From the IMG/VR virus record IMGVR_UViG_3300000116_000223, positions 1 to 20,073 of that record: 20,073 nucleotides of DNA. One strand, given 5' to 3'. Below the pieces are notes generated by a model. That model was not told the DNA's origin. It made no database searches and saw only the letters and a program-made list of their open reading frames with translations. This document shows, one piece after another, positions 5,033 to 17,266 of the stretch. Position 1 is the first letter of the stretch. Each line of letters starts with the position of its first letter. A program made the position numbers and the translations under genes. The stretch comes from a virus.

Positions 5033-5401
5033 TTAATAAACACCAATACTTGAAATAGAACCATTCAATGTAGATTGTTGTTTACTGTTAAGTAATTTAT
5101 ATGAAGATACTATGTTAGATAATCTATCTTTAGAGGGTATTCTAATTTGAGCACCTACTTCAGGAATAAGAGAGTCTGGAGTTTGAGTTGAATTTGCTCT
5201 AGCTATTATCCACCATAAACTTGAATCTCCATAAAAACTCTGGGCTAATAAATCGTATCTGTCACCTCTATTAGTATACACATAAGTATCTAAAGAATCA
5301 AGGGCAATTGAAGGATATTTTACATTAATGTATCCTCTTTTAGAGATTGATGATTGATTATTTTGGTATTCTATATAATTAATATTTGTGTATCTACTCA
5401 T
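5033..5401 (-). CDS. gp53: gp53/LysM-like baseplate wedge protein
   Basis: A small protein of 122 aa. Residues 36-89 form a LysM-like module: SLDTYVYTNRGDRYDLLAQS, then FYGDSSLWWIIARAN, ending in VGAQIRIP. This pattern (strand, then a helix with D-LA-FYGD, then WWIIARAN, then a proline-ended strand) is typical of LysM-type tail proteins such as P2 gpX and the T4 wedge protein gp53, which connects baseplate wedges. T4 gp53 is longer (196 aa), so this would be a minimal version. The ends outside the module are Ser/Asn/Gln-rich. Its position between the 861-aa structural gene (12-base gap) and the hub-like gene (17-base gap) fits a baseplate role. The LysM here would serve protein contact rather than peptidoglycan binding. 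Confidence 0.7.
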   Translation of the reverse strand: MSRYTNINYIEYQNNQSSISKRGYINVKYPSIALDSLDTYVYTNRGDRYDLLAQSFYGDSSLWWIIARANSTQTPDSLIPEVGAQIRIPSKDRLSNIVSSYKLLNSKQQSTLNGSISSIGVY

Positions 5402-8235: not shown

Positions 8236-8247
8236 TATTATAAATAT
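8236..8247 (-). promoter_or_regulatory. Intergenic motif ATATTTATAATA, putative late promoter
   Basis: The coding strand reads ATATTTATAATA, ending 12 bases before the ATG of the 71-aa gene. It is one of seven copies of ATATTTATAAYA, all placed just before start codons. An AT-only core at this spot suggests a -10-type element of a phage late promoter giving a very short 5' leader. Confidence 0.6.
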
Positions 8248-10680: not shown

Positions 10681-10692
10681 TATTATAAATAT
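10681..10692 (-). promoter_or_regulatory. Intergenic motif ATATTTATAATA, putative late promoter
   Basis: An exact copy of the shared motif on the coding strand, ending 12 bases before the tape measure ATG, in the short gap after the chaperone-like ORF stop. Spacing is the same as for the 71-aa gene. Confidence 0.6.
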
Positions 10693-11751: not shown

Positions 11752-12123
11752 TTAAAGAGATGAAATATTATCATCTTTTGTAAAAAATGCTTTAACTCCT
11801 GGTACTTTTCTAATATCCTGAGCTATGTCCATCATTTTTTCTCTATCAAATCCACCTTTTGTTATAAATGGGTAACCATCTACTTTTACACTTAATATAG
11901 CTTTAAATTTATTTAAATCTTGTTCCTTATATGAAAGTGGTTCTTCGGATGAGATAACTGTAATTCCAGGTATTGCTCTAATATCAGAGTAAATTTCTTT
12001 TTGAGGACGTTCTTTAATGTCAGTAATTAAAGTACCTACCATTTTATATTTATCTTGATATTCCTCATTTATAGCTTTATTTAGCTCTTCTTTTACTAGC
12101 GTACGTAAACTATTGTATTTCAT
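11752..12123 (-). CDS. Unknown protein with ferredoxin-like repeated pattern, 123 aa
   Basis: The start is set at ATG 12123. An upstream ATG at 12189 would add 22 hydrophobic residues, but its codons run through the hairpin region of the tail tube terminator, and the motif copy at 12135-12146 precedes only the later start. Residues 1-20 form a helix (LRTLVKEELNKAINEE). Two similar halves follow. The first is YKMVGTLITDIKE leading to 'DIRAIPGITVI' (27-57). The second is FKAILSVKVDGYPF leading to 'DIRKVPGVKAFF' (73-114). Strand-helix-strand twice with 'IR-(I/V)PG(I/V)' turns suggests a ferredoxin-like (ACT-like) fold. I cannot assign a function. It lies between the tail tube and the gp26-like gene, 41 bases before the latter, so a role in tail assembly is plausible. 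Confidence 0.6.
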   Translation of the reverse strand: MKYNSLRTLVKEELNKAINEEYQDKYKMVGTLITDIKERPQKEIYSDIRAIPGITVISSEEPLSYKEQDLNKFKAILSVKVDGYPFITKGGFDREKMMDIAQDIRKVPGVKAFFTKDDNISSL

Positions 12124-12134
12124 TTGTATGTATA

Positions 12135-12146
12135 TGTTATAAATAT
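12135..12146 (-). promoter_or_regulatory. Intergenic motif ATATTTATAACA, putative late promoter
   Basis: A copy of the shared motif, ending 11 bases before the ATG of the 123-aa gene. It stands about 30 bases downstream of the tail tube terminator, where a new promoter would be needed to transcribe the following genes. This position is the best argument that the motif is a promoter. Confidence 0.65.
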
Positions 12147-12172: not shown

Positions 12173-12206
12173 AAAAATAAAAGCTCCACGTGTAAGTGAA
12201 GCTTTT
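12173..12206 (-). terminator. Intrinsic terminator after the tail tube gene
   Basis: On the minus strand the arm AAAAGCTTCAC pairs with GTGGAGCTTTT over 11 bp (one G-U wobble) around a 6-base loop TTACAC. ATTTTT follows directly, giving a U-rich end TTTTATTTTT. The hairpin starts 21 bases after the tail tube stop codon. This is the clearest terminator in the window and closes the sheath-sheath-tube unit. Confidence 0.82.
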
Positions 12207-12227
12207 AAATATATTTTAAAATTAATT

Positions 12228-12736: not shown

Positions 12737-12748
12737 TATTATAAATAT
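12737..12748 (-). promoter_or_regulatory. Intergenic motif ATATTTATAATA, putative late promoter
   Basis: A copy of the shared motif between the second sheath gene and the tail tube gene, ending 20 bases before the tube ATG. It would let the tube be transcribed independently of the sheath. Confidence 0.6.
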
Positions 12749-12763
12749 CTAAATTTTATTCTT

Positions 12764-14461
12764 TTATGCTGGGAATTCTGCTCCAGTAGGTAGTAAAATG
12801 AAATCTACTGAAATGAATTCTGCTGTTCTTGTTGGTTGAACATATACTTGCCCTATCAATTGGTTTCTATCAATTACATCTGGGCCATTGTTTGAGTCAT
12901 CCATTACTACTTTAAAAGCATATAAACCTTGTTTTTGTTGTACTGTTTCTAAATATGGTGTAACTCTAGCTAAAAAGCTATTTCTTGTAGTTGCTGTGTT
13001 TTGTTCAAATACTATAGTATCTGCTGTTTGGCCAATAAAGCTTTTAAGTTCAATTAGTAAACGTCTTACATTTACTCTATCAAGTGCAGAAGCTTCTTTT
13101 TGTAATGTTTTTTGTCCAAATACTACAACTCCTGTTCTAGGTAATGTAGCTAATGGGTTAACATTTGATTCATATAATGAATCTTTCTGTGCTTGAGTTA
13201 ATTTATATTGAGTTCTCATTACTTCATCTAATCCACCTCTATTAATACCTGCAGGTGCAAACCATGGAGCAGCTATTTTATCATTATTTGCATATACACC
13301 AGGTATAACTGTTGATGCAGGTGACCAAATATGTCTTCCTGTGGATGGGTCAATTATTCTTACCCAAGGCCAATATGAAGCTCCATATGACGAATCTCTA
13401 CTTCCTGCTTGATTAATTACACTTGTTGTTGTTTCATTATATGTAACTAAATCTAAAACAAATAAATTATCTCCTCTTTCTTGTGTATTTGTAAGAAGGG
13501 TTGAGATTTTAGATCCATGTAAATCACTTGTTAAACCAGGTGTAAATAATACATTAAATTGATATGCATTTTTATCTTTTAATAAATCAATGGCATTATC
13601 ATAGTTATCAGGAGCTAATCCTTGTGTGTTTATAGCACTGATATTTTCATTCATTAGTGAACCATCTTTCATATCTCCAGTAGCAGCACCAAATGATCCA
13701 CTTCCTACAACAGGGATGGATCCTGTAAATGCAACTTTTGCTGCTCCATTAGCATCTAAATAATTTGGTGTAGGGGAAACAACACTTTTAACTCTTACAT
13801 AACGTGAAGCATTTGGATATTCGCCTGTTATATCAAGCTGGTTAGTTGATGAGTTGTATGCCAATTTTTGATCTCCAATTACTTTAGCTACATAACGAGT
13901 TGAGAATGGATCTAAATTTACATTATTATATGATTCAAGAATCATTTTTTTATTGTTTCTATCATCTCCTTGTCTAACTAAAAGGGTAAAATTACCGGAA
14001 GATGTATTTGAAGTAGCAATTTCCCACCTTACATTATCTTTTGATCCGTCAGATAAAACACCTCCTGTTCCTTCGGAAGAAGTACTATTCATAATAATAC
14101 CTTCACCTATAGTTTCTAAACTAAAGGCATTAGCAACAGTTCCTCCAGCAATAACTGAGGATGTAGCTGGGGTATATGAGCCACTTACTACTCTAGTTAC
14201 TAATAATGAACTTCCACCATTGTTAAAATAGCTATATGCTGCTGTTGAAGTTAAAAATGAGTGTACTAAACTACCACTTTCAAAAGTATCACCGAAACGA
14301 TTAACATAATCTGAATATGATGTAATTAAAGTTGGGATTTCAACAGGGCCTTTTACTGTAGGTCCTATAATAGCAGCACCCGCTTGTACTGGTTGGCCTG
14401 TAAGAAATGTGTTATCTATTTCGTTTAACGTTACTCCAGGAGAAATTGAAAAGTTTGCCAT
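12764..14461 (-). CDS. gp18: Tail sheath protein, second paralogue (gp18-like)
   Basis: This 565-aa sheath subunit forms the contractile outer layer of the tail. The N-terminus has the family signature SPGV (ISPGVTLNEID), then 'AGAAIIGPTVKGPVEIPTLI' and 'YFNNGGSSLLVTRVV'. The conserved C-terminal contraction domain includes YWPWVRIIDP (from about 363), PWFAPAGINRGG, GVVVFGQKTLQ, LDRVNVRRLLIELKSF (from about 459) and the closing strand AEFISVDFILLPTGAEFPA. T4 gp18 is 659 aa, so this is a slightly shorter type. It is clearly homologous along its whole length to the sheath gene just upstream, by eye roughly half identical, with the variable middle (about 120-290) most diverged. It is nearest the tube gene, as gp18 is to gp19 in T4. 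A motif copy precedes the start by 11 bases. Confidence 0.92.
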   Translation of the reverse strand: MANFSISPGVTLNEIDNTFLTGQPVQAGAAIIGPTVKGPVEIPTLITSYSDYVNRFGDTFESGSLVHSFLTSTAAYSYFNNGGSSLLVTRVVSGSYTPATSSVIAGGTVANAFSLETIGEGIIMNSTSSEGTGGVLSDGSKDNVRWEIATSNTSSGNFTLLVRQGDDRNNKKMILESYNNVNLDPFSTRYVAKVIGDQKLAYNSSTNQLDITGEYPNASRYVRVKSVVSPTPNYLDANGAAKVAFTGSIPVVGSGSFGAATGDMKDGSLMNENISAINTQGLAPDNYDNAIDLLKDKNAYQFNVLFTPGLTSDLHGSKISTLLTNTQERGDNLFVLDLVTYNETTTSVINQAGSRDSSYGASYWPWVRIIDPSTGRHIWSPASTVIPGVYANNDKIAAPWFAPAGINRGGLDEVMRTQYKLTQAQKDSLYESNVNPLATLPRTGVVVFGQKTLQKEASALDRVNVRRLLIELKSFIGQTADTIVFEQNTATTRNSFLARVTPYLETVQQKQGLYAFKVVMDDSNNGPDVIDRNQLIGQVYVQPTRTAEFISVDFILLPTGAEFPA

Positions 14462-14472
14462 TTTTTATCTTT

Positions 14473-14484
14473 TATTATAAATAT
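14473..14484 (-). promoter_or_regulatory. Intergenic motif ATATTTATAATA, putative late promoter
   Basis: A copy of the shared motif between the two sheath genes, ending 11 bases before the ATG of the second paralogue. It would allow the two sheath genes to be expressed at different levels. Confidence 0.6.
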
Positions 14485-14509
14485 TAATTATTTTTTTAAA
14501 ATTCTATTA

Positions 14510-16225
14510 CTAAGCAGGAAATGTTGCTCCTGTTGGTAGTATATTAAAGTCTAGTACTATAAATTCTGCAGACTTAACAGGTTGTAAATAAACATATCCT
14601 ATAAGTTGGTTATTATCTATTGTTGTTGGGGTATTATTTGATTCATCCATTACCACCTTAAATGAGGTTAAACCTTGTTGGTTTTGAACAGAATTTAAAT
14701 AAGGATTTACTTGTGATAAAAAATTATTACGTGTAGTAACATTATTTTGTTCAAATACTAATGTATCTGCTACTTGAGATATAAATCCTTTTAATTCAAT
14801 TAGTAAACGTCTTACATTTATTCTATCTAAAGCTGTTTTTCTACTTTGTAGTGTTTTTTGTCCGAATACTGTAACTCCGGTGTTTGGGAAAGTTACTATT
14901 CCATTTATGCTGTTTTGATATAAAGTATCTCTATTTCCTTGAGTTAAATATCTTTCAGCTCTAACGGCTGTACTCATTATTCCTCTACTTTGTCCTGCAG
15001 GTGCAAACCAAGGTTCAGCAACTCGATCATTAAAAGCATATATTCCTGGAATTAAAGTAGAAGCAGGTACCCAAACTTGTCTTGCTGTATCTGGATCAAT
15101 TGTTTTCACCCAAGGCCAATATGTAGCAGCATACGATGTATCATAGGTAGCAGCTTGTGTTATAGTAGTACTTATATTAGCACCATATCTTACTAAATCA
15201 ATTACAGCCATTGAATCTCCTCTATTTTGAACTGTATTAATTACATTTGTAATTGTGGTGGTATGAAGAGCAAAATCTGATAATAGGCCAGGGATTGTAA
15301 TTAAATTGTATATGTATGCTTCTTTATTTGCTAATAAGGAGATTGAATCAGCATAATCAGTAGCTTTTAACCCTTGAATACTATCATTTGAAATGTTTTC
15401 ATAATATTTCCCTTCTGTTCCAGGTATATTACTACCTCCAGCACCACCAAACACCCCACTTGAAGTAATAGGTAATGAACTAGTGAATTGAGATTTTGGT
15501 GTTCCATTATTATCAAAATATTCAGGAGTAGTTATATTAACTTGCTTTACTCTAACATATCGAGAGTTAGTAGGATAATCACCATTTGATGTTACAAAAA
15601 ACTCACCACCATCACTAGATACTACTTCAGTTTGTGTACCAATAATTTTTTCTACATAATTAGGTGAATATGGATCTAATGAAAGGTTACTCCATGTTTC
15701 TAATCTTGATGGTGAGAGTGTAGTATCATCCCCTCTTCTAATTACTAATTCAAAAGTACCCTCAGCTGTATTTCTATTTGTAATTTGCCATCTAATATTA
15801 TCTTTGGTACCATTTGCTAAAGTTCCATTAGCATTTAGTGAACTTGAGCTATTCATAATTTCACCTTCAGTAAGTGTTTCTAGTACAATTGATGCTGAGG
15901 TGTTAGCGTTTGCAATAATAGAAGATGTTGCAGGAGTAAATGAACCACTTACTACACGTGTAACTAATAAAGAAGTTCCACCATTGTTAAAATAGTTATA
16001 TGCTGAGATAGAGGTTAGATAAGTAAATGTTTGGCTTCCACTTTCAAAAGTAGTACCATATTTATTTGAATAGTCACTGTAAGTAGTGCATATGGTAGGA
16101 ATACCAACTTTTCCTTTTACTGTTGGACCTACTATAGCTGCACCTGCTGATAAAGGGAGCTGGGTTATTTCAGATTGGTCGTTTTCAATTGCTAATACTC
16201 CAGGTGATACAATAGTTTCTGCCAT
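14510..16225 (-). CDS. gp18: Tail sheath protein, first paralogue (gp18-like)
   Basis: This 571-aa protein has the same architecture as the downstream sheath gene. It starts with IVSPGVLAIEND, then 'AGAAIVGPTVKGKVGIPTI' and 'YFNNGGTSLLVTRVVSGSF'. The C-terminal domain has YWPWVKTIDP (from about 369), PWFAPAGQSRG, GVTVFGQKTLQ, LDRINVRRLLIELKGF (from about 465) and AEFIVLDFNILPTGATFPA at the end. Both genes keep the N- and C-terminal strands that link neighbouring subunits in a contractile sheath, so neither looks decayed. Some nucleotide blocks of 20 bases or more are identical between the copies, for example around the NVRRLL codons. Whether the two proteins mix in one sheath or do different jobs cannot be told from the sequence. 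A motif copy lies 17 bases before the ATG. Confidence 0.92.
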   Translation of the reverse strand: MAETIVSPGVLAIENDQSEITQLPLSAGAAIVGPTVKGKVGIPTICTTYSDYSNKYGTTFESGSQTFTYLTSISAYNYFNNGGTSLLVTRVVSGSFTPATSSIIANANTSASIVLETLTEGEIMNSSSSLNANGTLANGTKDNIRWQITNRNTAEGTFELVIRRGDDTTLSPSRLETWSNLSLDPYSPNYVEKIIGTQTEVVSSDGGEFFVTSNGDYPTNSRYVRVKQVNITTPEYFDNNGTPKSQFTSSLPITSSGVFGGAGGSNIPGTEGKYYENISNDSIQGLKATDYADSISLLANKEAYIYNLITIPGLLSDFALHTTTITNVINTVQNRGDSMAVIDLVRYGANISTTITQAATYDTSYAATYWPWVKTIDPDTARQVWVPASTLIPGIYAFNDRVAEPWFAPAGQSRGIMSTAVRAERYLTQGNRDTLYQNSINGIVTFPNTGVTVFGQKTLQSRKTALDRINVRRLLIELKGFISQVADTLVFEQNNVTTRNNFLSQVNPYLNSVQNQQGLTSFKVVMDESNNTPTTIDNNQLIGYVYLQPVKSAEFIVLDFNILPTGATFPA

Positions 16226-16242
16226 TTGTTAATAGATTATTT

Positions 16243-16254
16243 TGTTATAAATAT
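16243..16254 (-). promoter_or_regulatory. Intergenic motif ATATTTATAACA, putative late promoter
   Basis: A copy of the shared motif, ending 17 bases before the ATG of the first sheath gene. Confidence 0.6.
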
Positions 16255-16262
16255 GTCATAAC

Positions 16263-16281
16263 TTAAGTTAAATTAACTTAA
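16263..16281. repeat. Inverted repeat TTAAGTTAA-A-TTAACTTAA
   Basis: Perfect 9-base arms around one central base, overlapping the stop codon of the 90-aa gene and lying just before the motif of the first sheath gene. It could be a protein-binding operator-like site or a weak hairpin. No T run follows, so it is not a convincing terminator. Confidence 0.3.
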
Positions 16282-16545
16282 ATTAGTAATTTTGCCAGTT
16301 TCTGGTTCAATATTACATTTTCCATACTTTTTAAAGATATCTTTAGTAAGTTCTTTTTCTCTGTTAGTCAATTCATTTAGAAATATTTTTGCGTCTTCAT
16401 GTCTATTTTCAAGTTGAAGCTTAGTCATTTCTATTTCACCTAATTCTAAAATAAGAGATTGGGTTTGGGTTTGGATGTTTTTAAGATTTTTTAATTCTTC
16501 TTCTGTTAAAAACTTTTGTTCTTCTTTATTCGTAACTATTGACAT
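16273..16545 (-). CDS. Small coiled-coil protein, 90 aa, unknown function
   Basis: The protein is almost entirely helical and charged: FLTEEELKNLKNIQTQTQSL, then ILELGEIEMTKLQLENRHED, with heptad-like spacing of Leu and Ile over about residues 12-72. It ends in a short segment YGKCNIEPETGKITNLS that looks like a beta turn. It has no membrane segment or signal. I do not recognise the family. It sits immediately before the sheath genes and has its own motif copy 24 bases before the ATG, with a very A/T-rich leader. A small coiled-coil protein here could be an assembly factor or a minor tail component, but this is a guess from position only. Confidence 0.7.
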   Translation of the reverse strand: MSIVTNKEEQKFLTEEELKNLKNIQTQTQSLILELGEIEMTKLQLENRHEDAKIFLNELTNREKELTKDIFKKYGKCNIEPETGKITNLS

Positions 16546-16569: not shown

Positions 16570-16581
16570 TATTATAAATAT
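16570..16581 (-). promoter_or_regulatory. Intergenic motif ATATTTATAATA, putative late promoter
   Basis: The first copy of the shared motif in transcription order. It lies just after the LamG gene stop and 24 bases before the ATG of the 90-aa gene, the longest spacing of the seven. Confidence 0.55.
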
Positions 16582-16582
16582 A

Positions 16583-17266
16583 TTAAGGTGTGTCTGTGCT
16601 ATAGGATGCGCCATTAATTGTACCTGTGCCTTCACCACTCATAGTATTATTAGCTGTTGTACCCGATCCTTCTTCAAATCTATACCAGTATGTAGGATCG
16701 TCAGCTAAAAGCCCAGTTAAATCTCTAATTACACCTCCATTATATATTTTATTTACATTTGCACTTTGGTCACTACCTCTCCAAAGTGCAACTTCATCCA
16801 TTAATCCTATATAATGTCTTCCAGATGCTCCACCAAGATAACCAAGATCAAAATCACCTGATAAGCTTCCTGTAGCTTCACCAAATGCTACTCCATTTCT
16901 AAAAGCTTTCACTATTGCAGATCCATTTCTTGTAATTACAACATTATTCCATACATTTAATTCAATTTCATTACCATCTCCTGTTGTATAAAAAGTAATT
17001 GAACTACCATCAACATTTAAAAGTATTTCAGTAGTTCTTACTAGATGAATGTAGTCAGAAGAACTTGAATTTTTCCCTGCAATATAACGACTATCTGCTG
17101 GGCTAATACCTTCAGGTTTGATCCAGAATGAAAAAGTAAACTCATCAGTATATGTTACATCAGTAAAAGTTACATTATCACTACTTCCATTAAAACTTAA
17201 TGAAAAATTATTATTAAATCCACTTTCTTGTGCTGCAATTGTTCCTAGACTTATTCCTATTCCCAT
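16583..17266 (-). CDS. LamG/concanavalin-A-like lectin-fold structural protein
   Basis: A 227-aa protein with a single jelly-roll domain covering residues about 19-227. Typical pieces are FSLSFNGSSDNVTF (21-34), DEFTFSFWIKPEG (41-53), 'ELNVWNNVVITRNGS', 'VKAFRNGVAFGEATGSL', 'YIGLMDEVALWRG' (152-164) and 'YWYRFEEGSG' near the end. This is the order seen in LamG-type (Laminin_G_3) domains, which often bind carbohydrates. The N-terminal MGIGISLGTIAAQE may be an attachment segment. There is no signal peptide. The gene lies between the tail terminator and the sheath genes, 7 bases after the Ser/Gly-rich gene, so the protein probably decorates the virion, perhaps near the neck, and could hold host or surface glycans. 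The fold is well supported; ligand and virion location are inferred. Confidence 0.8.
   Translation of the reverse strand: MGIGISLGTIAAQESGFNNNFSLSFNGSSDNVTFTDVTYTDEFTFSFWIKPEGISPADSRYIAGKNSSSSDYIHLVRTTEILLNVDGSSITFYTTGDGNEIELNVWNNVVITRNGSAIVKAFRNGVAFGEATGSLSGDFDLGYLGGASGRHYIGLMDEVALWRGSDQSANVNKIYNGGVIRDLTGLLADDPTYWYRFEEGSGTTANNTMSGEGTGTINGASYSTDTP

Follow-up and report, generated by a model that had tools for sequence, protein, structure and literature searches.

A contractile sheath is usually regarded as a polymer of a single protein, and a lineage that has long kept two offers a naturally occurring test of how the stacking of rings is specified. What, then, would two complete sheath genes lying side by side do in one phage? 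Such a pair occurs in IMG/VR virus record IMGVR_UViG_3300000116_000223, of which we analysed positions 1 to 20,073 (hereafter the window, 20,073 nucleotides (nt) of a 23,925-base record). The window has a G+C content of 28-34%, and its minus strand carries a module of tail genes. The two sheath genes, here called shB (upstream in reading direction) and shA (downstream), had been picked out by an earlier note on the same DNA. Our tentative answer is that the two proteins would build a single contractile sheath in which rings are sorted by subunit kind.

Both genes are stop-free open reading frames (ORFs) in tandem on the minus strand, and their family, domain and fold assignments agree. The tail sheath family phrog_23 of PHROGs was matched by shA at 1.8e-71 and by shB at 6.9e-69, and both passed the curated Pfam cut-offs of PF04984 and PF17482. 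AlphaFold2 monomer models, with predicted local distance difference test (pLDDT) values of 84.4 for shA and 84.9 for shB, were best matched to the solved gp18-type sheath 9f4a (shA: Z 32.5, root-mean-square deviation 3.9, 435 aligned; shB: Z 34.0, 3.6 and 436, respectively). The N- and C-terminal ends are present in both proteins and disordered in the monomer models. The proteins are identical at 308 of 565 aligned residues and the genes at 62% of aligned codon bases; by 40-column bins, identity was lowest in the middle (35-45% in most bins) and 55-73% at the ends. The ratio of nonsynonymous to synonymous substitution rates was 0.05-0.19 for upstream (U) copies and 0.07-0.25 for downstream (D) copies across 12 locus pairs, one of them without a U value. 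Because both copies are intact, under purifying selection and kept across the whole lineage described below, both look functional, and the earlier note's claim of two complete, functional-looking sheath genes in tandem holds.

Relatives' loci were collected by searches with P0001, P0002 and unk145 (a small gene beside the tube gene), the best 80 being taken for each, and the counts given here are not frequencies in nature. IMG/VR scans with both sheaths returned two kinds of locus, namely one-sheath loci in the order unk90-sheath-tube-hub and two-sheath loci in the order unk90-U-D-tube-unk145-hub; the arrangement unk90-shB-shA-tube-unk145-hub is held by dozens of IMG/VR contigs. In two-sheath loci, the upstream copies all group with shB, and the downstream copies all group with shA. 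Trees were inferred for 192 sheath proteins and, more carefully, for 102 rows (26 loci with both copies and 50 single-sheath rows). In both trees, U copies formed one clade and D copies another (support in the 102-row tree 100/99 and 100/100, respectively), which indicates that the two copies were already paired before the lineage spread and that they have not been homogenised. In the 102-row tree, the D clade joined 30 single-sheath rows (100/98) and the U clade 10 others (95/82), and forcing U and D into one clade cost 75 log-likelihood units (approximately unbiased (AU) test, p 0.028). The phages themselves look like a single lineage: 46 two-sheath rows fell in one clade of the tube tree, with one exception (L036), and 17 of 19 did so in a tree of tube, hub, tape measure protein and g861 (exceptions L028 and L031). 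Two rows that the 192-protein tree places in the U or D clade look single-sheath but are not countable as such, since L094 starts at its contig's start and L013 ends about 100 bases after its sheath gene. When longer sequences were searched with P0001, four two-sheath contigs (122-156 kb) had two sheath genes each and no further copy, inserts splitting some of the genes, and one sheath gene each was found in three single-sheath contigs (113-155 kb) and in Flavobacterium phage vB_FspM_immuto_2-6A (immuto below). In the phage collection, P0001 matched 2,676 places across 2,608 records; a record with two or more such places is therefore rare. Judged by these trees and gene orders, the paired sheath genes are a long-standing arrangement that this phage lineage has conserved.

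The trees also bear on how the pair arose. The earlier note had counted grouping of the copies with separate lineages as an outcome that would tell against it, and this is partly what the trees give: the copies group with different single-sheath sets, which changes the origin story but makes neither copy any less functional. Since each copy has its nearer relatives among single-sheath phages, a different set in each case, and not in its partner, recent duplication is disfavoured. Most simply, two sheath lineages from related phages were likely joined once, and an old duplication with repeated losses would also fit better than a recent one. A recent tandem duplication within the lineage, with similarity kept by gene conversion, seems very improbable to us, although the tandem position speaks for it and, over 26 loci, identity within loci was slightly above that across loci (0.629 vs 0.620), with three outlier windows in two relatives. 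In the window itself there was no such excess (0.619 within, 0.624 across loci), and gene conversion there was rejected. The identical blocks of at least 20 bases from which occasional exchange had been proposed do exist, two in number (20 and 26 nt), but they give exchange no support: when a window copy was compared with the opposite copy type from a different phage, nine of 50 such pairs had a run of at least 26 nt and 11 had two or more runs of at least 20 nt, so the blocks are conserved motifs.

Other sheath pairs were encountered as well. Three loci (L142, L148 and L156) carry a second, separate tandem pair, made up of a copy of 566 amino acids (aa) and a longer one (799 aa in L142), whose two members too lie in different parts of the sheath tree. 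A 484-kb uncultured phage (LR756508, locus L161) has two large sheath-like ORFs, each of about 830 aa, that flank an unk90-like gene.

Where the copies differ was examined by position. The earlier note placed the differences mainly in the middle, and the middle is indeed least alike, but differences fixed between U and D copies cluster in the linking arms too. Arms were defined as residues 1-21 and 543-565, the N-arm limits being set by analogy with M1-S21 of phage phiKp24 (excerpts of PMC9700779), and the test was made among positions conserved in both copy types at several conservation cut-offs. In the 26-locus set, fixed differences made up 9 of 31 arm positions and 17 of 252 others at a cut-off of 0.7 (p 0.0006), with p values of 0.001, 0.004 and 0.003 at 0.75, 0.8 and 0.85, respectively. 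With 86 U and 88 D sequences, the values were 0.0006, 0.007, 0.017 and 0.017 over cut-offs 0.7-0.9, and the odds were approximately 5-14 at most cut-offs. The arm change lies on the D side, as U copies and single-sheath phages across the tree keep E3, T4, N15, Q17, S18 and N555. Residues 15 and 555 were tabulated in 81 of 88 D, 80 of 86 U and 84 of 85 single-sheath rows, rows gapped at either residue being dropped. Both residues were hydrophobic in all 81 D copies; the U copies had Asn/Asn (78) or Asn/Thr (2), and Asn/Asn was found in 74 of the 84 single-sheath rows. Two related single-sheath phages (L096 and L100) have Ile/Ile, both residues having changed together, and in the independent tandem pair of L142 Tyr4 and Ile15 occur in the second copy only. 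The U copy, for its part, departs in the C-terminal domain at positions where single-sheath and D sequences agree (e.g., 410, 411, 414, 420, 514, and 515). By these comparisons, shA is the copy whose N- and C-terminal arms have been rewritten, and shB the one that has kept arms of the single-sheath type with relaxed positions in its C-terminal domain.

The pair is accompanied by the gene unk145. Among loci holding both tube and hub, 21 of the 24 with two sheaths had unk145 between them, against 0 of the 70 with one sheath; the two-sheath loci without a match were L020, L092, and L023. With unk145 as the probe (best 80 of 93 relatives), the U+D pair was present in all 42 assessable loci, that is, those with at least 4.4 kb before unk145; one of them, L229, has its D sheath gene split into two ORFs (419 and 323 aa), by a frameshift, an assembly error or an interruption. 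The remaining 38 loci start too close and gave D only in 22, U+D in seven and neither in nine. No known family was convincing for unk145 (best values: PHROGs 0.029, Pfam 0.065, PDB single-sequence 0.85, and PDB profile 0.039), and the loci screen with unk145 and the tube protein as queries gave no blastp link between the two, no profile-profile comparison being made. Its N-terminus (LRxLVKEELxxxLxEE) resembles that of a protein whose gene immediately precedes the gp25-like gene in immuto and G011. A terminator-like stem of 12 pairs followed by T's lies between tube and unk145 (12178-12207, minus strand) and overlaps the GTG-started ORF, and this favours the ATG at 12123 as the unk145 start. 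Another flanking gene, a gp53-like baseplate gene, has Arg93 and a two-residue insertion after IRIP in 32 of 32 two-sheath and 0 of 14 single-sheath sequences. Fixed changes between two- and one-sheath phages were few in g302 (4/120), g243 (2/88), and unk90 (1/16), and none was found in hub (0/101), g861 (0/74), or g169 (0/60).

A mixed sheath or a special ring, as the earlier note had suggested, is still the best kind of explanation. We assign a probability of about 0.45 to one contractile sheath built from both proteins, with rings sorted by subunit kind. In its favour are the two intact sheaths, their common retention in one gene order and as separate clades, the concentration of fixed differences in the arms, the joint state of residues 15 and 555 and the presence of unk145 with the pair. 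Both shA and shB would be present in virions, and residues 15 and 555 would meet at the arm contact. If they do, Asn with Asn in shB and Ile with Ile in shA could act as two closure codes, the handshake arms differing by polar Asn15/Asn555 against hydrophobic Ile15/Ile555, along with Thr4 against Phe4. Each copy would close rings with its own kind, and both kinds of ring would stack in the shaft; derived D arms with a changed U C-terminal domain, and ancestral U arms with a conserved D C-terminal domain, would fit alternating or block stacking. According to excerpts of PMC10457771, a gp25 homologue gives the first ring the same platform, and those of PMC9700779 (phiKp24) and PMC10811340 (phage Milano) agree with it. 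A solved precedent for a two-component shaft is provided by the antifeeding prophage (AFP), whose shaft entries 6rbn and 6rc8 contain both Afp2 and Afp3. As for unk145, it may help in sheath assembly. The fuller account, in which sheaths of different ancestry were joined, made mutually exclusive by their handshake arms and assembled into a ring-sorted sheath with a dedicated unk145, is more doubtful.

Several points weigh against a ring-sorted shaft. The presence of both proteins in virions is presumed, and so is the contact between residues 15 and 555, the models being monomers with disordered arms. In the 26-locus set, the arm enrichment was weak at a cut-off of 0.9 (p 0.08) and lost at 0.95 (p 0.31), and at 0.95 the set of 86 U and 88 D sequences had zero fixed differences in the arms. 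Some fixed differences (147, 172, and 197) lie outside the arms. Further, the D arms changed in a single event, on a single stem, residues 15 and 555 changed jointly in just two lineages, and the second copy of L142 pairs Ile15 with Asn555. The tube, moreover, has no fixed change between two- and one-sheath phages (0/84 columns).

We nevertheless lean to the two-component shaft over a sheath in which almost all of the shaft is made of one protein, with the other forming one or two end rings on the baseplate or neck side as an adaptor, which is possible and to our mind less likely. Pvc3 and Pvc4 of the Photorhabdus virulence cassette (PVC) are listed only in its baseplate entry 6j0n, and Afp4 only in 6rao (titled baseplate) and 6rgl. 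The rewritten shA arms would be in keeping with docking on an altered platform, and the relaxed C-terminal domain of shB with a ring that receives no other ring; the fixed changes in the gp53-like gene also favour an end ring. On the other hand, the two copies have evolved at similar rates (mean distances within copy types: U 0.321 and D 0.306) and surface inserts sit on either copy. The first ring would sit on gp25-like proteins (PF04965); genes for these were present in 7 of the 18 records, and three two-sheath against four single-sheath sequences are too few to compare. Free entry of both subunits into the same rings, with a benefit in dosage or surface variety, would suit adjacent genes with like leaders and a common fold; the concerted, opposite changes of N-arm and C-arm and the arm enrichment of fixed differences speak instead for separate recognition, and we regard such random mixing as improbable.

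Use of the two proteins in different virions or conditions, as a form of surface variation, we rate about as low. Surface variation, which the earlier note had raised, is real in the relatives: an insert of approximately 90-145 aa is present near residue 106 in 27 of 86 U and 17 of 88 D proteins, that is, in 44 of 174 two-sheath copies, and in 2 of 85 single-sheath proteins (those of immuto and Mel-JY01). Three of these inserts (D of L014, D of L231, and U of L092) are closest to the insert of the other copy type, and surface modules may thus move between copies in relatives. However, shA and shB of the window are both without the insert, and no core exchange was seen there. The same motif before both sheath genes and the tube gene suggests joint late expression, and an invertible repeat or switch was neither sought nor seen. 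Avoidance of two inserts in one phage was not observed among 70 distinct loci holding both copies (39 with none, 17 with U only, 7 with D only, and 7 with both; Fisher p 0.21).

The motif in question is TATTTATAA. A promoter-like motif of its own had been ascribed to each copy, and an exact TATTTATAA does stand before each. It also precedes unk90, tube, unk145, the tape measure gene and a 71-aa ORF, the seven exact copies in the window all being on the coding strand, 22-35 nt before tail gene starts (chance mean 2.2; 0 of 100 shuffles reached 7). No excess was found when one mismatch was allowed (37 found, 41.5 expected). Generic sigma-70-like sites were not enriched (24 found, 30.6 expected), unlike the exact TATTTATAA series, and generic sigma-70 promoters were ruled out as an account of the motif. 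Among relatives, TATTTATA precedes 47 of 53 U genes, 45 of 48 D genes and 55 of the 81 single-sheath genes. TATTTATAA is likely a promoter or leader element of this phage group.

Table 1 Features of the window (strand and positions as in the 20,073-nt stretch)
Feature	Positions	Strand	Basis
shB, U-type (upstream) tail sheath gene, 571 aa	14510..16225	-	phrog_23, Pfam, AlphaFold2 model, U clade 100/99
shA, D-type (downstream) tail sheath gene, 565 aa	12764..14461	-	phrog_23, Pfam, AlphaFold2 model, D clade 100/100
Putative N-terminal linking arm of shB, residues 1-21, ancestral E3 T4 N15 Q17 S18	16163..16225	-	sequence comparison
Putative C-terminal linking arm of shB, residues 549-571, ancestral Asn561 (= 555 of shA)	14513..14581	-	sequence comparison
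Putative N-terminal linking arm of shA, residues 1-21, D-type N3 F4 I15 N17 T18	14399..14461	-	disordered in model; derived in D
Putative C-terminal linking arm of shA, residues 543-565, with I555, E562	12767..12835	-	sequence comparison
TATTTATAA before shB	16245..16253	-	exact match, 28 nt before start
TATTTATAA before shA	14475..14483	-	exact match, 22 nt before start
Further TATTTATAA copies	8238-8246, 10683-10691, 12137-12145, 12739-12747, 16572-16580	-	exact matches
Tail tube protein, 162 aa	12228..12716	-	phrog_4542 4.9e-19
unk145, 123 aa from ATG at 12123 (mechanical ORF to GTG 12189)	11752..12123	-	family alignment begins at ATG
unk90, conserved small gene before sheath gene(s)	16273..16545	-	same place in one- and two-sheath loci
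LamG/concanavalin-like protein gene, just before unk90	16583-17266	-	PF13385 3.2e-17
gp53-like baseplate gene	5033-5401	-	phrog_7145 2.4e-11; Pfam Phage_gp53 0.0037, below cut-off

In reading order, the module runs from a head-tail adaptor-like gene (phrog_211) through g169, g302, g194, the LamG-like gene and unk90 to shB and shA, followed by tube (phrog_4542), unk145, a hub-like gene (phrog_150), the tape measure gene (phrog_167) and more baseplate genes (Table 1). The tube gene comes directly after shA, a gp18-type sheath gene being expected next to the tube gene. Capsid genes lie outside the window, and the nearest named record is a phage. The LamG-like protein, a possible surface adhesin, was found in only five of the loci sets screened. 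Hosts are probably Bacteroidota, because phage immuto grows on Flavobacterium and two metagenome-assembled contigs from Bacteroidota bins carry single-sheath relatives.

The comparison leaves a short list of residues (4, 15, 17, 18, and 555) with which to ask whether handshake chemistry decides which subunits share a ring, and an answer would help to explain the use of more than one sheath protein by AFP and PVC particles. According to excerpts of a survey (PMC9230969), some phage genomes encode two sheath copies. Our literature search for phages and particles with several sheaths yielded PaBG-type jumbo phages and AFP, and the present pair may already have been published elsewhere. The Pseudomonas jumbo phage PaBG (Lupandier group) has, like the window phage, two complete sheath genes in one genome, and excerpts of PMC7412058 report both among its virion proteins and as having arisen by duplication; the window phage is represented by a metagenomic contig. 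The PaBG sheaths are 38% identical and non-adjacent (gene numbers 76 and 213), unlike those of the window, and the group is unrelated to the window phage by tblastn (Lu11, 22.9% to shA). Moreover, an origin by duplication within the lineage, as in PaBG, seems disfavoured for shA and shB (AU p 0.028). AFP and PVC likewise have several sheath proteins in one particle (excerpts of PMC8894135 and PMC12961389), but they are headless non-phage injection particles with small sheaths (354-466 aa), which match the sequences of shA and shB only in the C-terminal part. The nearest named phage, immuto (Immutovirus), has the same gene order around sheath and tube, and its sheath is 47.7% identical to shA and 51.2% to shB; it differs in having one sheath gene (711 aa) and no unk145 match. 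The C-terminal half of the sheath matches gp18 of phage T4 (phmmer 1.4e-41), and the fold of the core is shared, whereas T4 has one sheath protein and its outer domains differ. Phages and particles with more than one sheath protein are thus a known kind (PaBG, AFP, and PVC), and what is new here is the lineage, the predicted arm code and the companion gene.

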